Shown in pieces: positions 4,781 to 41,075 of a DNA stretch of 64,000 nucleotides (its first letter is position 1; each line of letters begins with the position of its first letter). The notes under the pieces were generated by a model that was not told where the DNA came from, did no database searches, and saw only the letters and a program-made list of their open reading frames with translations. The stretch lies in contig JAJTUP010000059.1 of NCBI GenBank assembly GCA_021399435.1, forward strand, positions 1-64,000, given 5' to 3'. The translations under genes were made by a program, and so were the position numbers. The DNA comes from Diaporthe sp. PMI_573. Lineage: Eukaryota > Ascomycota > Sordariomycetes > Diaporthales > Diaporthaceae.

Positions 4781-4921
4781 AGACAAAACCATTATAAAGT
4801 ACCAGAAAGAGAGAGAGTTAAAGTAAAGCTAGAAGAGGACCCAAGACTAGACTGGTAGAGGCTGTAGAAAGTAGCTACAAATTAAGTAGCGATAAGCCAA
4901 TAAAGGCCAGGACAGCTAGAA

Positions 4922-5170
4922 GCTGGCCAATAAAGTTAATATTAGCCTAATGAGTACCAGATGGCTAGCCAATAAAGTTAAGGTTAACCAGATAAGTACT
5001 AAAGGCTGGCTAATAAAGTTAATATTAGCCTAATAAGTACCAGATAGCTAGCCGATAAAGTCAAGATTAACTAGATAAGTGCTAGAGGCTAGCCAATAAA
5101 GTTAATATTAGCCTGATAAGTGCTAGATAACTGGCTAATAAAGCCAATATTAGATAAATAAGTGTTAGAG
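4922..5170 (+). repeat. Minisatellite, 41-42 bp unit, about 6 copies
   Basis: Units start near 4922, 4963, 5004, 5046, 5087 and 5129, each with a GCTRGCCAATAAAG-like core. Odd and even copies differ in a consistent way (one type continues TTAATATTAGCC, the other TTAAGGTTAACC or a close variant), suggesting an original 83-bp dimer. A 42-bp unit equals 14 codons, so it may have arisen as a coding repeat after the chromodomain. The last copies are degenerate. Confidence 0.85.
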
Positions 5171-5340
5171 AACTAACGGGTAAACTAGAGGCTAGCCTAA
5201 TAACAGGGAAATATTTCTAGATAAAGGCCTACCAAGGGGCTATTAAGTATTACCTAAGTAGAGGAGGGCTTTAAAGATTAATATATTAGAATTAAGTACA
5301 AACAACCTTAGAAATATCTGGGTTAAGGGGGGACTAGAAG

Positions 5341-9178: not shown

Positions 9179-11239
9179 AGTGGTTAACGAAAAGGAAGCG
9201 GTCCCGGCCATTGCCTATTATTTACGGGCCAGCCGTGAAAATCTGAATCTAGGATACTGATTGACTGATTTGACTCGAGTCTTTGTGGTTGTCCTTCCTG
9301 TGGGTTAGGCAAAGGAGAAGGGGGAGGACCAGCTACTGTGGGTGTAGTTTCTGTTGTGGTTGAGGAAGGTCTCGTCTTTTGAGCGAGAAGAAGAAAGGGG
9401 ACTAATTATTGTGGGTGTAGTTCCTGTTGTGGTTGAGGATGGCTATTTGGGCCTGCCGAAGGAGGATGACCACTAGAAGAAGGACTAGCAGAAGGACCAG
9501 TAGAAGAAGGAGGAGGAGGACCAGCCGCCATGATATTCGCGCTTCTTTAGTAGGTGGTTTGTTTGTTTATTTCCGGGAGACTAGAAGAAGGAGGAGAAGG
9601 CGAAGGCGAACAAGCTGAAGGCGAAGAAGGCGGAGGGGCTGCTGCCGCTGTAGTTAGCGATGTCGGCTTTAACGAGGGGCCGCTGCCGCCGTAGTTGGCG
9701 ACGTCGGCTTTGATGCGAGTGGTGGTGACGGGAACCAGTATACCGCTGCAATGGTAAGCGGCGAAGAGATCTAGGTGAGAGAGAGAAAGAGAGAGAGGCA
9801 CTGTTGCCCGCTGCTACCGAACAGCAGTAATGGTGCCGGGGTAGGAACGCCGCCTTCTGCAAGGTAGACGTTAGCCGGCACGCCGTTGTCTGCGGCAACC
9901 AGGCCTGCGGCGGTGGTGCCAGAGGGAGCAGGGGCGCCGTTGTCTGCGGCGACTAGGCAAGCGGTGGTGATGCCGGTGGGGGCTGGGGTGCCGCTGTCTG
10001 CGGCGACCAGGCAAGCGGTAGTTGTGGTCCTCTTCTCGGCTTTTGGATCTGCAGAAAAGAGGGTATTGTAACACTCACTGCTACGGCTTATGACCGGCAC
10101 AAGAACCATTTACCCGCAGGTGGTGGTTATCGGCAAACGGCACCTATTACTGCGTAGTCTAACGGGTAGAGTTGCCCTTTCGAGTGGTTATCTTGGTTAT
10201 ATACTGCTAAAATGCAATAAAAGAGGGGTAGGTGAGGGTTTTGGTGTTCCGGGCACGGTTTTGGGTGTTCTGGGCGGCTGTGCCAAGCGGCCGAGGGAGT
10301 GTAAGGGGGCCTGGGCAAGAGGTTTGTGCGTAAATGGTAGGGTAAGTGCTTGAGGTCAGTACCTGCCCTGCCGGCAGTTGTTTAGGTGGCAAGAAGGCTA
10401 CTGTGTGGTGAGAAGCCCTTTTGTAGAAGAAGGGGAAGGGGCAAAGAACGAGGCCGTGAGAGTGTTCTTTGCCTAGGGGATGGGTATATTGTAGGGAAGG
10501 TGCGATGGTGCGTACCGCTAAACAGTCGGTTTTTTGCGTAGAAGGTTGTCGTCGGCATAGCGGGTTTGTACGGGCGTCGGTTCCTTCTCGTGATACTTCG
10601 TGGTGAATACCCGGCTCTTCCGGGGGTCTTTGCTAGGAAGGAACTTCTGGTCTTTAGTGGCTGGATCTCCTGGGGTACTAGCAATGACGACTGCCTGGTC
10701 TGGTTACCGGTTAGTGGTGGCTGCTTCTTTTCGATCGTGTAGCGTAGATATCGCGGTCTGCTTTGTCGGCTGTTGACTGCTTGCTGGCTGACAAGGTCGG
10801 CGAAGGTCTGGTGATGGATCTACCTCTTCGGACCTAGCTGTCAGGGATTGACGGGGTAGTCAACCACTGATCAGTGTTGGTACGGCCCTGACTGCCAAGG
10901 GTCAGGGGTCTTTGCACGTGCAAATAGGGGCGAGCAAAAGCCGTACTGTTTGGGTACGGGTTCGATTCTTGCTACGGAAGGAAGAAAGGAAGTCATCGCC
11001 ATCGTGGGCGCCGAAGCACTTAGTGTAGTGGCTAGCCCTCTGCTGACTAAGCCAGACCGGCCCTTCTGATTGGCCATAGCCGGGCCGGGCGTGCGGTCCC
11101 TTCAACGGTCACCAAATCCACAGTCACAGTCTTTTCCACTTCAAATATCGTCATTGAAAAGTCGAAACCCGCATCTAGAATCCCGCTCATATTTTTCATT
11201 GCTTTCAATTACCGGGAGCTGCAAGAAGAAGAGCTCACA
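9179..11239. other. GC-rich repeat-bearing DNA, no gene recognised
   Basis: Upstream (on the - strand) of the Copia Gag remnant. It holds a purine-rich GAAGAAGGAGG tract (about 9465-9640), a 41-bp duplicated unit (9641 and 9682), a 54-bp tandem repeat (see 9888-10030) and unassigned sequence. Open frames here are repeat-driven and look non-genic. It may include the Copia 5' untranslated region and LTR, but I could not find LTR ends. Confidence 0.5.
9888..10030. repeat. Tandem repeat, 54-bp unit, about 2.7 copies
   Basis: Units start with GTCTGCGGC at 9888, 9942 and 9996 (exactly 54 bp apart). Since 54 is a multiple of 3 the repeat stays open on both strands, which explains several long spurious frames. 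The unit is GC-rich, unlike the nearby Gypsy remnant. Confidence 0.9.
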
Positions 11240-14284: not shown

Positions 14285-16206
14285 ATGAGGTCCTCCACCC
14301 TTGACACAGCCATCCTGCTCTTGACAGGGCTAGGCAGCTCCGCTGCGCTTCCCAAGAGATCTGACGGCGCAGTGCAAGTTGACATACCAGCTTCGGCCGC
14401 CGGCGCGTCCATTCCACACTCTGCTTCGTTCCAGTCCTTCTCTTTTGAGCCTGCCTTCTGGGTGGAATTTTTTGGCAATGCCTCTGAGCCGAATGAACTC
14501 ACCTTTGAGCTCCTCTCGAGGCTCGTCGAGCGTGGTGGGCAGCCTCTGATCAGGGCGGGCGGGATCACACAGGACAGCATGATATTCAATGCTTCTGCGG
14601 CCGACCCTGTACGCACGACCAACGCAGCTGGTGGTGTGTACCGCACTACATTCGGACCCGAGTATTGTACGTATATGACAAACTTGAACTGTCTGCTGTC
14701 AATACCGGAGTGTATTGGGCTCCGGAACCAGTGACTGACACGTCCAAGACAAGAGTTGGGATAACTTCCCCAATGGAACAAGATTTGTGTCGACACTCAA
14801 CTTTGGGAACAACAGCCTTGACATCGCCCGGGATATGGCTGTGGCATCTGTCCAGTACCAGAAGGACAAGATCGACTACTTCGAGCTCGGGAACGAGCCG
14901 ACAAACTACCCGAGCTCACGGTGGAACTTCAGCACCGACGCATATGTTGCGCAGTGGAAGGACTGGACATCGCAAATCGACGCAGCAGTGAATCAAACAG
15001 TGGACGCAAATGAGTCTGCTTTCCCAAGTGAGCGATGGTGGGCGTCCAGCGCTACTACAGATCAGACAGGTCTTCATGTTCGTCCCGCGGACATTATCCC
15101 GGCCGGCATAAATTCGGACAACCAGGTCGCTCAGTACTCCATTCACTCGTAAGCAGCTTTCGGATTCAAACTTTACCCCTAAAAAAAAGGGACTTTCCCC
15201 ATCTCGAGCCTATGTCTCGAAGGTCTTGCTAGGCTGCGGGTTTTGAGTCAGGCCTTGGCCACGCTGTGTACCGCCCCCCCCCCAACCGACCGCCCCCATA
15301 TTTGCACAAATAAATTCCTAGGTGCTTTGGAAGCTTCAAAACTGACCGAAAAGCAGGTACGAGTTCAGTACATGTGATCCGGCTCGCCTTGCGCTGGCCA
15401 CGATACCCAATATCCTCAACCATACTGGCCTGCTCCGCTACGCCGATGAGGAGATCTACCCTTCCGCGAAGGCAGCCATGGACGCCGGGTCCACCTGGGT
15501 GATCGGCGAGTTCAACTCGATCTCATGCTCTGGCAATCCCAACGTCTCGGACACGTTCGCGCAGGCTCTGTGGGTCGTTGACATGGAGCTCATCTACGCC
15601 GCGCGCAACGCGTCCTCGGTCCACCTGCACCAAGGCGCCACATTGGTCTTCCAAAGCGATGACCAGTCCAACAGCGCCGGTGAAAACGGCACGCCTGGCT
15701 TCTCGACCTACAGCTTCGTCTACCCCCGCAACAGCTCCAAGCGGGGTGAGCCCCGGGCCTTGCCCAGCTTTGTCAGCCTGCTGTTCATCACGGAGGCCCT
15801 CGGCGACGGCTCGGGCGCTCAGGTTGCGGCCCTCGACACGCCCGCGGGTCTCAGCAAGGACCACTTCTCGTCCTACGCCTTTTATGAGGACGGTGACCTG
15901 AGCAAGATTGCCCTGATCAACATGAAGCCCTTCTACAAGAACTCGACTGGGGACTTCACCGTCACCGTCGACCTGTCACAGTATACACAGGATCTGGACT
16001 CCCCGGCCCAGCTGAAACGCATGACCGCTCCGTACGTCGATGAAGGCAAGACGGAAGCGACTACTTGGGCAGGGCAGTCTTTCAAGAACGGCGATCCAAC
16101 CGGAGCACTTGATATTGAAGAGATTGGCCCGGACGGGTTGGTGAATGTGAGGGGAAGTGAGGCTGTTCTCATCTTCCTTGACGGCGGCTCCGTATATTCC
16201 ACCTAG
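14285..16206 (+). CDS. Secreted glycoside hydrolase family 79 (beta-glucuronidase-like)
   Basis: Exons 14285-14666, 14749-15148 and 15357-16206 give 543 residues. A signal peptide is clear (hydrophobic ILLLTGLGSSAA, then LPKR). The body matches fungal GH79 enzymes, which remove glucuronic acid from arabinogalactan or proteoglycan chains outside the cell. The acid/base Glu is in FELGNEP (about residue 177) and the nucleophile Glu in IGEFNS (about 310); the IRAGGITQD motif is also present. Intron 1 (82 bp) splits a Tyr codon; intron 2 (208 bp) carries a long C-rich tract (about 15272-15298). The second acceptor was chosen because it yields HSYEFSTCDPARL, the form expected for the family. Exact substrate is inferred; heparanase-like members share the fold. 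Confidence 0.88.
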
Positions 16207-23369: not shown

Positions 23370-24546
23370 TTAACGTTTCTTCCCTCCAGCGCCCACTTTC
23401 CCGAGCGCGGGGACCACAATGTTTCCAACAGCTACTTCAGCGAGGTGCCTCATCGCCGCGTATTTGACACCACCTCGCTTCTCAGGCTTGAGGACGTGGT
23501 CCACGACCGCAGCCCCGAGGGCAGCGCTCGCAATTTTGGTCCCTTTTGTCCTCCATGGCATTCTGCAGCATTCAGGGTCAGTTATCAGAGCACCAAAGGA
23601 GCAGTTTCGTACAAATAGGGCAAATAAAGGGCCACAGTGTGGCCATAGCCCATCTCAAACCACCAGCGTAATAAGTTCTTTGAGGCTAGGCCACAGAGGG
23701 GAGGTGTTTCTTCTGGAAGGGGTTAAGATTGTATTCAGAAGCTGCTTACTGCTCAGTGCCGACTTTCATCAGGGCAACGCCCCCGGCCTGGAAGGCGACT
23801 TTCGCGGCATCCTCCCACGGGAAGTCCTCCCATGGCATCTTGTTGGACTTGGGCTTGGCCTGTTTTCGGCTGTTGTGGGACAGACTCCTGACCGGACGCG
23901 GACGCGGACGGGCCCGCGTTCGTGGTGTGGACTTGTACGATGACCCTGCCCGCTTCACTTGTGGGCGACGAATAGCGTTCAAGTAGGACGAGCTGGCTCG
24001 CGATGGTCTCGGCCGAGGGCGGCTGGCGTGTGATGATGGCTTGGAAGGGGCTGCTGATGACCTGTGCCTGTCGTTGTGGTCGTCCTCGTCTGGATCTCTA
24101 GGCTGGGGATGAGAGTGCGAGTGACGGTGCGAGTGATGGTGGTGTTGATGGTGTCCATGAGAGCGGGAATGGGTATGTCCGCTCCTCGACGACGAGCCAT
24201 GTCGAGAGCTGCCATGCCTCGAATGACTCTTGTGATCTCTTCCCACCTGGTTGCTGACTGCATCTCTCTTCTCGGACAGGTGCGAGTCCAAGGGATCCTC
24301 TTCGTCCGATAAGTAGTATTTGTCCCTGGGGTCGTAGTCCGTTTCGGTCTCGAACTGGCTATCGTTGTTGTCGATGTCCTTGGCCTTTCTTTCCCGCGTC
24401 ATGAGGGAAGTCTCAGAAACCCCTCTCTGTAGCTTTGGGCTGTAGCCACGCGGCCGGCTCGATCTCCGATGACTCGAATCATCCTCGCTGCCGATGTGGC
24501 CATCAAGGTAGTCGACGCCGCTCTTGGGACGTCTCGGCGAGGGCAT
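23370..24546 (-). CDS. Uncharacterised His/Ser/Arg-rich protein with conserved C-terminal module; carries an introner-like intron
   Basis: Exons 24546-23750 and 23562-23370 give 329 residues. The ATG at 24546 is the first in frame; a 5' exon cannot be excluded because a CTCTAG acceptor-like site lies just upstream. Residues 1-110 are polar and acidic/basic mixed, about 110-150 is a His/Ser run, 160-225 is Arg/Pro/Ser-rich. The C-terminus (AAKVAFQAGGVALMKVG, then GTKIASAALGAAVVDHVL) resembles a small Gly/Ala-rich helical module found in many fungal proteins of unknown function. The 187-bp intron splits the Gln codon in GTEQ|MPWR and is nearly identical to an intron of the aminotransferase gene at 40.6 kb. 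Function unknown. Confidence 0.75.
23563..23749 (-). repeat. Introner-like element, copy A (187-bp intron)
   Basis: Complete intron from GTAAGCAGCTT to GAATGCTGCAG. It aligns without gaps to the intron at 40599-40785, with 24 mismatches in 187 by my hand count (about 87% identity). Flanking exons show no similarity. The core has a GGCCACA/TGTGGCC hairpin (23630-23644). The sense strand follows the host gene. Confidence 0.9.
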
Positions 24547-39267: not shown

Positions 39268-41075
39268 ATGCCCGTCTCCTGTAAATCTGTCAGATGTCTT
39301 AAAAGCACTGGTCAGCTTCGCATTTCCCCGAGTGCCTATCCCCAACATCAACGACACTTCTCTTCCTTCAGCATGACGCCCTCAGAACCACCACCTGCTG
39401 AGCCCAAGAAGCGCGCCATCAACCTCCTTCGTGGCTGGCCATCGCCTAATGTACTCCCAGCAGAGGCTCTCAAGGTGGCTGCCAATAAGGTCCTGTCCAA
39501 TCCCGACATTTTTGTCCCAGGTTTGTGGAATCTCCTGAGGCGAAGGGCCACTCTCACCCGTCTCCTAAACCCGCTCTGTCACACAGGCTGACCTTCAATG
39601 AGGTCTCCAATATGGGCCTGACCCCGGCTACCAGCCCCTGCGTGAAGAGCTGTCTAGGTTTCTGAGCGGGCAATACGGCACCGGGGCAGATGCTGAGAGG
39701 ATCTGTGTCTCAGGCGGCGCAAGCCAAGCATTAGCCTGTGTACTACAGTCTTTCACTGAGCCCGTATACACCAAGGCCGTATGGGCCATTGCACCCTGCT
39801 ACTATCTGGCATGTGCAATCTTCGAGGACTCAGGCTTCAAGGGACGGCTGAGGGCAGTTCCCGAGGACGGTGAGGGCATCGATCTAGAATGGCTGGAACG
39901 GGGCCTGGAGAGTTTCAAGGACAAGACAAACCCGGACGAGACTCCCGTGTACAAAACACCGGAGCTCAGGAAGGTTTACAGGCATGTCATCTACGCCGTA
40001 CCTTCTGCCGCCAACCCATCGGGAAAGACGATGACTCTCAGGAGGAGGGAAGCACTCGTTCGTTTAGCGCGCAAGTACAATTGCCTCATCGTTTGCGACG
40101 ACGTTTACGACTTTCTGCAATGGCCTGTCGCTGAGGCCTCCTTTATTCCTCCTTCAGGGACAACGCCTGCCAAGGTTAAGATACTTCCGAGACTGTCAGA
40201 CATCGACTTCGCGCTTGGGCCTAGCAAATACGACCAGTCCCAACCAGACGGCAAGTGGTTCGGCCACGCAATCAGTAACGGCAGTTTCAGCAAGATAGTC
40301 GGCCCAGGAATAAGGACGGGCTGGGTCGAGGGAACGCGGGACTTCGCCTTCGGCCTCGCGCAGACTGGCTCGACCAAATCCGGCGGCGCCCCCAGCCAGC
40401 TCTCAGCAACTATTGTGTGCGAGATGATGAAGAGCGGCCAGCTGGCGCGGCACATAGACGGGGCCTGCAAGCCGAGCCTGCAGAGGAGGCACGCCCTTAT
40501 GATGAAGGCCGTACACGAGCACCTGGACCGGTTCGGGATCGAGGTGCTGGACTCAAATCCGACCGATGGCGGTGGGAGGGCCTATGGGGGCTACTTTGGT
40601 AAGGAGCTTTTGGACAAGATCTTAACCCCTTCAAGACGGAAGCTCTCCCATCTGTGGCCTGGCCTCAAAGGACTTATTACGCTGGTGGTTTGAGATGGGC
40701 TATGGCCACACTGTGGCCCTTTACTTCCCCTATTTGTATGAAACTGCCCCCTTGGTGCTCTGATAGCTGACTCCGACTGCTGCAGTGTGGATCACATTCC
40801 CGAGGGGACCGACGGCTCAGTCCATCGCGAAACGAGCTTTGGAAGATGAGAACCTTGTCGTTCCGCCGGGTGAGATGTTCCAGGTCAAAGGCGACGAAAA
40901 GGCGGTGCAGTTCCCTCACAGTATCCGGCTGTGCTTCGCCTGGGAGGAGGAGCGCGATCTTGTCGAAGGGGTCGCACGTCTCGGCCGCGCTGTTGAGTCA
41001 CTCTGGAACAAGGAGGAACCGGCTCCAAAAGCACAAGGTGGCTCCGGGGGTGGCAAACTAGACGCCTTCTACTGA
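39268..41075 (+). CDS. PLP-dependent class I/II aminotransferase; carries an introner-like intron
   Basis: Exons 39268-39520, 39603-40598 and 40786-41075; 512 residues. Family marks: INLLRGWPSP near the start, YGPDPGYQPLRE, SGGASQAL, ANPSG (substrate/PLP site), CDDVYDFL (Asp and Tyr contacting PLP) and the Schiff-base Lys in SFSKIVGPGIRTGW. It transfers amino groups between amino acids and 2-oxo acids; substrate is not predictable (kynurenine/2-aminoadipate-like group is closest). The first 35 residues (RISPSAYPQHQRHFSSFS) look like a mitochondrial presequence; a second Met at 39373 would give a cytosolic form. Intron 2 (187 bp) splits the GGYF|VW motif and is the second introner copy. Confidence 0.9.
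40599..40785 (+). repeat. Introner-like element, copy B (187-bp intron)
   Basis: Complete intron from GTAAGGAGCTT to CGACTGCTGCAG, the same length as the intron at 23563-23749 and matching it at about 163 of 187 positions. Identity is densest in the middle (about 40 consecutive bases identical around 40676-40722), where the GGCCACACTGTGGCC hairpin sits at 40704-40718. A branch-site-like CTGAC lies about 20 nt before the acceptor. Confidence 0.9.

Follow-up and report, generated by a model that had tools for sequence, protein, structure and literature searches.

Introduction

Introner-like elements (ILEs) of Dothideomycetes are near-identical spliceosomal introns that occupy unrelated genes and form several families per genome, as the available text of PMC4457414 describes them. 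Their degeneration, accompanied by shortening, is proposed in the accessible part of PMC9024468, and a preference for AG/GY sites (the slash marks the insertion point throughout) is ascribed to them in a citation within PMC8469720. For the sister stwintrons of Hypoxylaceae and Xylariaceae, the portions of PMC8469720 and PMC9024468 at hand report no exon bias at insertion sites. The accessible sections of PMC9860276 describe ascomycete introners as being without duplications or terminal repeats, and some families of algal introners (Micromonas, Aureococcus, others) as carrying 3-9 bp target duplications or terminal inverted repeats. As far as the available portions of this literature go, the copying route of fungal introners is unsettled: signs of DNA transposition are lacking, and the elements seem to land either without exon bias (stwintrons) or at AG/GY. 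The terms introner-like and Sordariomycetes occur together in the accessible text of papers on Hypoxylaceae and on Pleosporales. No paper naming both Diaporthe and introner was found; subscription papers and supplementary tables lay outside the search, and a listing elsewhere is possible.

Here we analyse a 64,000-nucleotide stretch of Diaporthe sp. PMI_573 DNA (the window), in which an earlier note had assigned two similar introns to the introner-like class known from Dothideomycetes. The class assignment stands, while the host in the present case is a Sordariomycete. We regard it as nearly certain that both introns, copies A and B, are members of a multiplying, introner-like family, hereafter family 1. 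With the ILEs of Fulvia fulva, Dothistroma septosporum and Zymoseptoria tritici it shares near-identical introns and the presence of several families in one genome (available text of PMC4457414). It differs from them in its Sordariomycete host and in its target, which is YA/TG or Y/ATG here and AG/GY there according to the citation in PMC8469720, the two having been compared by description and not by sequence. Like the sister stwintrons and the canonical introns derived from them, family 1 inserts seamlessly and without duplication (PMC12403724 and PMC8469720, as far as accessible), and both have a near-terminal inverted repeat, the 3' arm of which falls between the branch point and the acceptor (PMC12403724, same proviso). 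Unlike stwintrons, family 1 begins directly with GTAAG and has one set of splice sites and no twin intron. A stwintron of the [D1,2] type, in which an internal intron splits the external donor after its first G, was rejected, as no split donor occurs in 30 aligned copies. The distance from branch point to acceptor, by the measure given in the accessible text of PMC12403724, is mostly 11 nt in family 1 and 14 or 19 nt in stwintrons, and the perfect near-terminal repeat comprises 5 bp compared to the 9-10 stated in the available portions of PMC12403724 and PMC8469720. Moreover, family 1 shows a strong site bias, whereas none with respect to the exon is reported for stwintrons in those parts of PMC8469720 and PMC9024468. 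Multiplication of introns on a genomic scale is also seen in Micromonas, Aureococcus and other algae; unlike some of the algal families, with their duplications and terminal inverted repeats (PMC9860276, in the sections available), family 1 shows no duplication.

Results

Two near-identical introns in unrelated genes of the window

The features of the window that are relevant here are the following.

23370 to 24546, minus strand: host gene 1, His/Ser/Arg-rich protein, 329 aa without copy A, from alignment with relatives, which also set the start codon
23563 to 23749, minus strand: introner copy A, family 1, 187 nt, intron of the His/Ser/Arg-rich gene, site GAGCA/AATG, from identity to copy B and the orthologous spliced protein
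23577 to 23581, minus strand: putative branch-point element CTGAC of copy A, 14 nt before the intron 3' end, from sequence and spacing kept in the family
23741 to 23745, minus strand: 5' arm GCAGC of the near-terminal inverted repeat of copy A (GGAGC in copy B, one mismatch), from pairing over 84 copies
23565 to 23569, minus strand: 3' arm GCTGC of the same repeat, 2 nt before the intron end, from pairing over 84 copies
39602 to 41075, plus strand: host gene 2, class I/II aminotransferase, 428 aa without copy B and with one upstream exon left out, from Pfam and orthologues
40599 to 40785, plus strand: introner copy B, family 1, 187 nt, intron of the aminotransferase gene, site TTTG/TGTG, from identity to copy A, Pfam Aminotran_1_2 and orthologues
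40767 to 40771, plus strand: putative branch-point element CTGAC of copy B, from sequence and spacing kept in the family
15149 to about 15356, plus strand: third, more diverged family-1 copy, nhmmer E = 4e-17 (15149-15335, model 1-170), its 3' end (CTGAC..AAGCAG) placed by eye

After reverse complementation of copy A, copies A and B agree in 163 of 187 positions (87.2%) without a gap, which bears out the earlier estimate of about 87%. In a blastn self-search this pair is the top-scoring non-self match of the 64-kb window; it comprises exactly 187 columns (E about 2e-55) and stops at both intron ends, leaving 163-200 nt of exon on each side unmatched. Both copies start with GTAAG and end with CTGCAG, so that the dissimilarity of the flanking exons and the limits of the match are as the earlier note had put them. 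Its statement that splicing both introns gives back conserved protein is likewise supported. The spliced junction of host gene 1, ...KVGTEQ/MPWRTKGTKIASAALGAAVVDHVLKP..., is the same as in Diaporthe batatas, and the protein aligns without a gap at this point with those of D. eres, Cytospora mali and Cryphonectria parasitica. For host gene 2 the junction ...YGGYF/VWITFP... aligns gap-free with orthologues from Diaporthe, Cytospora and Cryphonectria and is bridged by the Pfam Aminotran_1_2 match.

The earlier note had overlooked the third window copy as well as a second introner family, described below. The third copy lies upstream of an open reading frame at 15478-16206 and, used as a genome query, retrieved only itself and one partial match (C112:3391671-3391774). 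Self-comparison of the window also revealed short tandem repeats at 4915-5174 and 9881-10019, with offsets of about 83 and 54 bases.

Family 1 across the genome

The assembly comprises 83.7 Mb in 217 contigs. An MCM6 gene of the window shares 97% identity with a protein of Diaporthe eres and 98% with a metagenomic one, and the assembly's ITS resembles that of Diaporthe. Searched with copy B the assembly yielded at least 42 matches (best 40 of 114 candidates scored), and 39 of these matches cover bases 1-187. Three further family-1 queries gave at least 40 matches each (best 40 of 171, 163 and 148 candidates scored) and another at least 41 (best 40 of 131), the five match sets overlapping. Candidates were picked on similarity alone, gene context being ignored. 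A profile search of the fetched stretches together with the window located 102 family-1 places, 93 of which are near full length and 89 match the model from 1 to 187. Five of the 89 were dropped as segmental duplicates (C161/C177, C79/C173, C46/C18; flanks 97-100% identical), leaving 84 distinct sites, which are the top BLAST scorers rather than a random sample. Within the fetched loci, the flanks of these sites show no other mutual similarity beyond family 2 and tandem repeats. Highly similar introns thus occur in many unrelated genes, at 84 full-length sites, and, apart from the duplicated segments, their similarity reaches both splice sites and goes no further. The view that such copies must have multiplied, not being ancestral to unrelated genes, is thereby upheld.

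A 22-nt core around the branch point occurs 172 times genome-wide with up to 2 mismatches (80 on one strand, 92 on the other), while the same pattern read backwards occurs nowhere in the genome. The 84 sites are thus the top scorers among a larger number, and core variants that recur suggest further family-1 subfamilies beyond those read. Of the 84 sites, 31, 29 and 22 make up three subfamilies, 2 remaining as single copies; the mean internal divergence of the subfamilies is 10-13%, and the closest unduplicated pair differs by 2.1%. Judged by these distances family 1 is long active, and perhaps was so until recently. The earlier reading of high identity as recent spread can therefore be kept in part only: the closest pair may reflect recent activity, but much of the spread is not very recent, given subfamilies that are 10-13% diverged internally.

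The copies are unevenly distributed, 71 of the 84 distinct sites lying on 11 contigs (C35, C101, C112, C124, C138, C145, C146, C160, C161, C169 and C173) that total 11.75 of the 83.7 Mb and were selected after the counts were known. Family 2, too, favours many of these contigs, and C196 as well. The cause may lie in gene density or in a genome compartment. A mixed or hybrid assembly was judged unlikely: an MCM-family search yielded 7 matches (all 7 candidates scored), read as six genes since two matches are adjacent pieces of one, and with only six MCM genes there is no sign of two mixed genomes. One of the duplicated gene segments (L025/L080, C161:139913-143569, and L028/L081, C177:250865-254522) is about 99% identical between its two places, each with the same three family-1 introners.

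Anatomy of family 1

Family-1 copies are 169-202 nt long. In the 30 aligned copies the GTAAG start and the TGAC columns are invariant. Among the 93 near-full-length copies, 80 start with GTAAGC (next GTGAGC, 5) and 77 end with CTGCAG (next CTGTAG, 11). A putative branch point CTGAC or CTGAT stands 14 nt before the intron end, acceptor counted, in 79 of 84 copies. The near-terminal stem, formed by positions 5-9 (GCAGC) and the GCTGC that lies 2 nt before the 3' end, is paired in 406 of 420 cells, compared to 174, 9, 87 and 16 of 420 with the partner shifted, and it is part of the predicted minimum-energy fold of 67 of the 84 copies. Its letters are simply common to most copies, and covariation is weak (double changes at 4 of 42 predicted pairs). 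The fold of the whole intron is barely more stable than that of shuffled sequences (mean z -0.75 over 84 copies; +0.61 and -1.39 for the two main window copies). With z near that of the shuffles and weak covariation, the whole-intron fold is a weak signature of family 1. Copy B has no Rfam match up to E = 1, and neither has one family-2 copy; a SINE or another known structured RNA (a relative of tRNA, 5S, 7SL or any other Rfam entry) was hence dismissed for these two.

One shortened family-1 copy (L019, C160:388403-388531) has lost the stretch between two CTGTGGCC direct repeats. It recalls the shortening of Dothideomycete ILEs in the accessible part of PMC9024468 and is possibly a step from introner toward ordinary short intron.

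Coding context and splicing

Nine open reading frames from the window served to train the codon-usage model by which coding frames in the 150-nt flanks were scored. In 87 of 89 copies (82 of the 84 distinct ones) the best flank frame has the same orientation as the intron, and in 2 of 89 it is antisense; the 38 confident frame calls are all sense. The best score is negative in 24 of 89 copies, so that some copies may adjoin other introns or sit outside coding exons. Some of the negative-scoring ones are plainly coding, e.g. glycogen phosphorylase (..PDYWLD/FNPWEF..), but adjoin other introns. If unspliced, the element would introduce an in-frame stop in 86 of 87 cases. Among 20 spliced products hand-picked from 75 candidates, a Pfam domain extends across the junction in 15, lies elsewhere in 1 and is missing in 4. 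From these sequence features we infer that family-1 copies are spliced.

In line with the prediction that the copies would prove to be sense-direction GT..AG introns, they have GT..AG ends and a putative branch point, and their flanks read best in sense frames. Placement in sense within coding exons, with the frame restored by splicing, is thus the rule, the 24 of 89 negative scores being borne in mind. The earlier note had named copies mostly outside genes or in both orientations as the outcome that would speak for a simple repeat or MITE; with 87 of 89 in sense and a Pfam domain across 15 of 20 junctions, this is not what was found.

Insertion without duplication

The joined exon flanks of 6 of 12 prepared sites were used as empty-site queries against the genome. 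The 23 matches comprise 12 to the own loci, 8 to a second-family intron inside one flank and 3 to paralogues. All three paralogues (on C113, C13 and C1) belong to the host gene at C173:134870; they are intron-free and match straight through the junction, where CCATG or CAATG is kept and no base is added or missing. The other 5 of the 6 queried sites had no paralogue match in the genome.

Regarding the window sites, the metagenomic predictions P0124 and P0161 and the MCM6 prediction P0004 are each listed on a 39,715-base contig, and the metagenomic prediction P0157 and the MCM6 prediction P0002 each on a 21,733-base contig. The metagenomic predictions look unspliced, because the C-termini of P0004 and P0002 leave the MCM6 sequence as if reading into an intron. 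P0124, P0161, P0157, P0123 and P0125 continue through the window intron sites, and these sequences suggest relatives with empty sites at both window positions. P0121, nearly identical to the host protein of copy A, ends exactly at the intron (..KVGTEQ), which suggests a close relative with a filled copy A site. Absence of the intron, for which the earlier note had advised checking orthologues, is seen in three paralogues at one site of 6 and is probable in relatives for the window sites.

A target duplication was looked for by comparing exon end with exon end, and exon end with whichever end of the intron a hidden duplication would involve; none of the 84 copies has a match of at least 3 bases in any of three arrangements. 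A hidden duplication of 1-2 bp was rejected too, with A on both sides of the junction in only 3 of 84 copies and 1- and 2-base exon-end matches in 10 and 4 of 84. Neither the target-site duplication nor the placement in both orientations and outside genes that would mark a DNA transposon or MITE was thus seen, 87 of 89 copies fitting best in sense.

Family 1 prefers ATG

An ATG is found at the junction of 54 of the 84 distinct family-1 sites, as A/TG in 39, as /ATG in 15 and as AT/G in none, compared to a background of 3.4% per position (17,556 flank positions; p about 1e-57). The base before the ATG is C or T in 35 of 39 A/TG and 13 of 15 /ATG sites, and the preference is seen in all three subfamilies. 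As controls, family 2 has an ATG at 1 of 38 sites, and predicted ordinary introns have one at 5 of 51 (looser screen, a set that may contain false introns) or 0 of 6 (strict screen); the looser set serves as control because the strict search gave only 6. Both main window copies (GAGCA/AATG, TTTG/TGTG) are among the 30 of 84 sites without the motif.

Phase 1 leads with 49 of 89 family-1 copies, one reason being that the ATG which is split is in many cases a Met codon of the reading frame. Such a codon is present at 38 of 52 ATG sites (2 of the 54, with an antisense best frame, are omitted) compared to 80 of 162 flank ATGs, a moderate enrichment (p = 0.004). Since the enrichment is only moderate and many sites have long open coding sequence upstream, start codons were rejected as the target. 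Extension of the stem by CA/TG pairing across the intron suits A/TG and not /ATG. Pairing of a YATGG target with the element's own GGCUAUGG stretch is possible, yet by a hand estimate expected by chance in 187 nt. At C145:359874-359496 (L037) one Met codon was hit twice, A[family-1 copy]T[more diverged copy]G, and the exon in between is one base long.

A second family of about 104 nt

In the flanks of family 1 we found an unrelated intron of about 104 nt, family 2, in the same and in other genes (L003 849-954; C196, C35, C138 and others). Near its termini lies a 10-bp inverted repeat, CTACGGATCC..GGATCCGTAG, which is perfect in some copies and imperfect in the others; the putative branch point is ACTAAC, and the 3' end is mostly TAG. 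The predicted hairpin is strong (mean z -2.37 over 37 copies; -4.73 for a composed sequence). A genome search gave at least 45 matches (best 40 of 289 candidates scored), up to 98% identical. The 30-nt core occurs 133 times genome-wide with up to 3 mismatches and, read backwards, not once in the genome. In one branch, 37 of the core-match places listed share the same 30-mer, for which reason it looks young; family 2 is apparently younger than family 1. Its 46 places in the fetched stretches include 5 that are too partial and 2 without the branch-point pattern, leaving 39 that were read. With a best frame in sense in 32 and antisense in 7 of these, the coding context is less clear than for family 1. 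A T precedes the intron at 18 of 39 sites, which is a mild preference at most. At C138:819008-about 818800 (L112) a tandem family-2 pair is parted by a single T, again a one-base exon.

Discussion

Taken together, the copies are best explained, as we think probable, as a non-autonomous mobile spliceosomal intron that multiplied in Diaporthe by seamless insertion of an RNA type. Each copy would derive from an RNA or an RNA-templated intermediate and would enter a transcribed exon seamlessly, e.g. by reverse splicing into pre-mRNA or into the single-stranded DNA of an R-loop, followed by copying. The near-terminal stem might hereby bring the two terminal Gs together, and entry would favour YATG, after the A or before it and never after the T, with the choice of target set by the element. 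From the absent duplications and the sense-exon placement we infer the RNA route. It fits best chiefly for two reasons: the copies occupy sense exons and carry no duplications, and the two families of this genome differ in target. That transcribed exons received the copies seamlessly through RNA, with a YATG preference depending on the element, appears to us the likelier course by a similar measure. The dependence on the element is deduced from family 2, which resides in the same genome without an ATG preference. More tentatively, and with somewhat less than even confidence, we propose that the introner itself recognises YA/TG (sliding by one base) while family 2 does not, in which case the target would be chosen by the intron, with neither the spliceosome nor the exon deciding it.

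Transposases and endonucleases typically act on a sharp, short target motif, and YATG is such a motif. The copies could accordingly be MITE-like DNA transposons that carry both splice sites and are moved by a transposase recognising YATG, the duplication being absent or hidden and only insertions into sense exons surviving or getting noticed. Short near-terminal inverted repeats are indeed present, and duplications, terminal repeats or both are given for 78.5% of the non-ascomycete introner families scored in the available part of PMC9860276. Nevertheless we consider this unlikely: there is no duplication of 3 bases or more at any of the 84 sites and no length change in three paralogues at one site, and the element begins at the splice-site G and not at the inverted repeat. 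Such a transposon would also predict many intergenic or antisense copies, which the 87 of 89 best read in sense do not bear out, and no longer, coding relative turned up among the fetched loci. A Helitron would insert between A and T without duplication, but Helitron ends are TC..CTRR, which the ends of family 1 do not resemble, and the /ATG class does not fit.

Alternatively, reverse splicing or end-joining repair could be unspecific, the ATG signature arising from later retention of those copies that are spliced well at A/TG. Purging of mis-spliced introners is proposed in the accessible text of PMC9860276, and a flanking CA..TG could lengthen the near-terminal stem of family 1. The /ATG class, however, does not lengthen it, and an ATG at only 5 of 51 predicted ordinary introns and 1 of 38 family-2 sites argues that this context is not required for a spliced intron. 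A rise from 3.4% to 64% would moreover need a purge of most other insertions despite strong splice sites, so that we hold this explanation, too, to be improbable, if slightly less so than the transposon. Shared ancestry, gene conversion or an assembly error as the source of the likeness between copies A and B has next to no probability. Real segmental duplicates do exist, but 84 sites with unrelated flanks remain after the five duplicates are dropped, and the number of unrelated host genes already argues against this explanation; only six MCM gene places were found, with no sign of two genomes mixed.

In conclusion, the strong, short and family-specific target and the exact insertion make the mechanism of introners testable, with a second family in the same cell as comparison. 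Existing ATG codons are also places at which one would expect further family-1 copies. If target choice is indeed borne by the intron, through RNA pairing or a family-specific RNP or enzyme, it would be a spliceosomal analogue of group II intron retrohoming. Family 1 offers a way into the problem of the origin of new introns.
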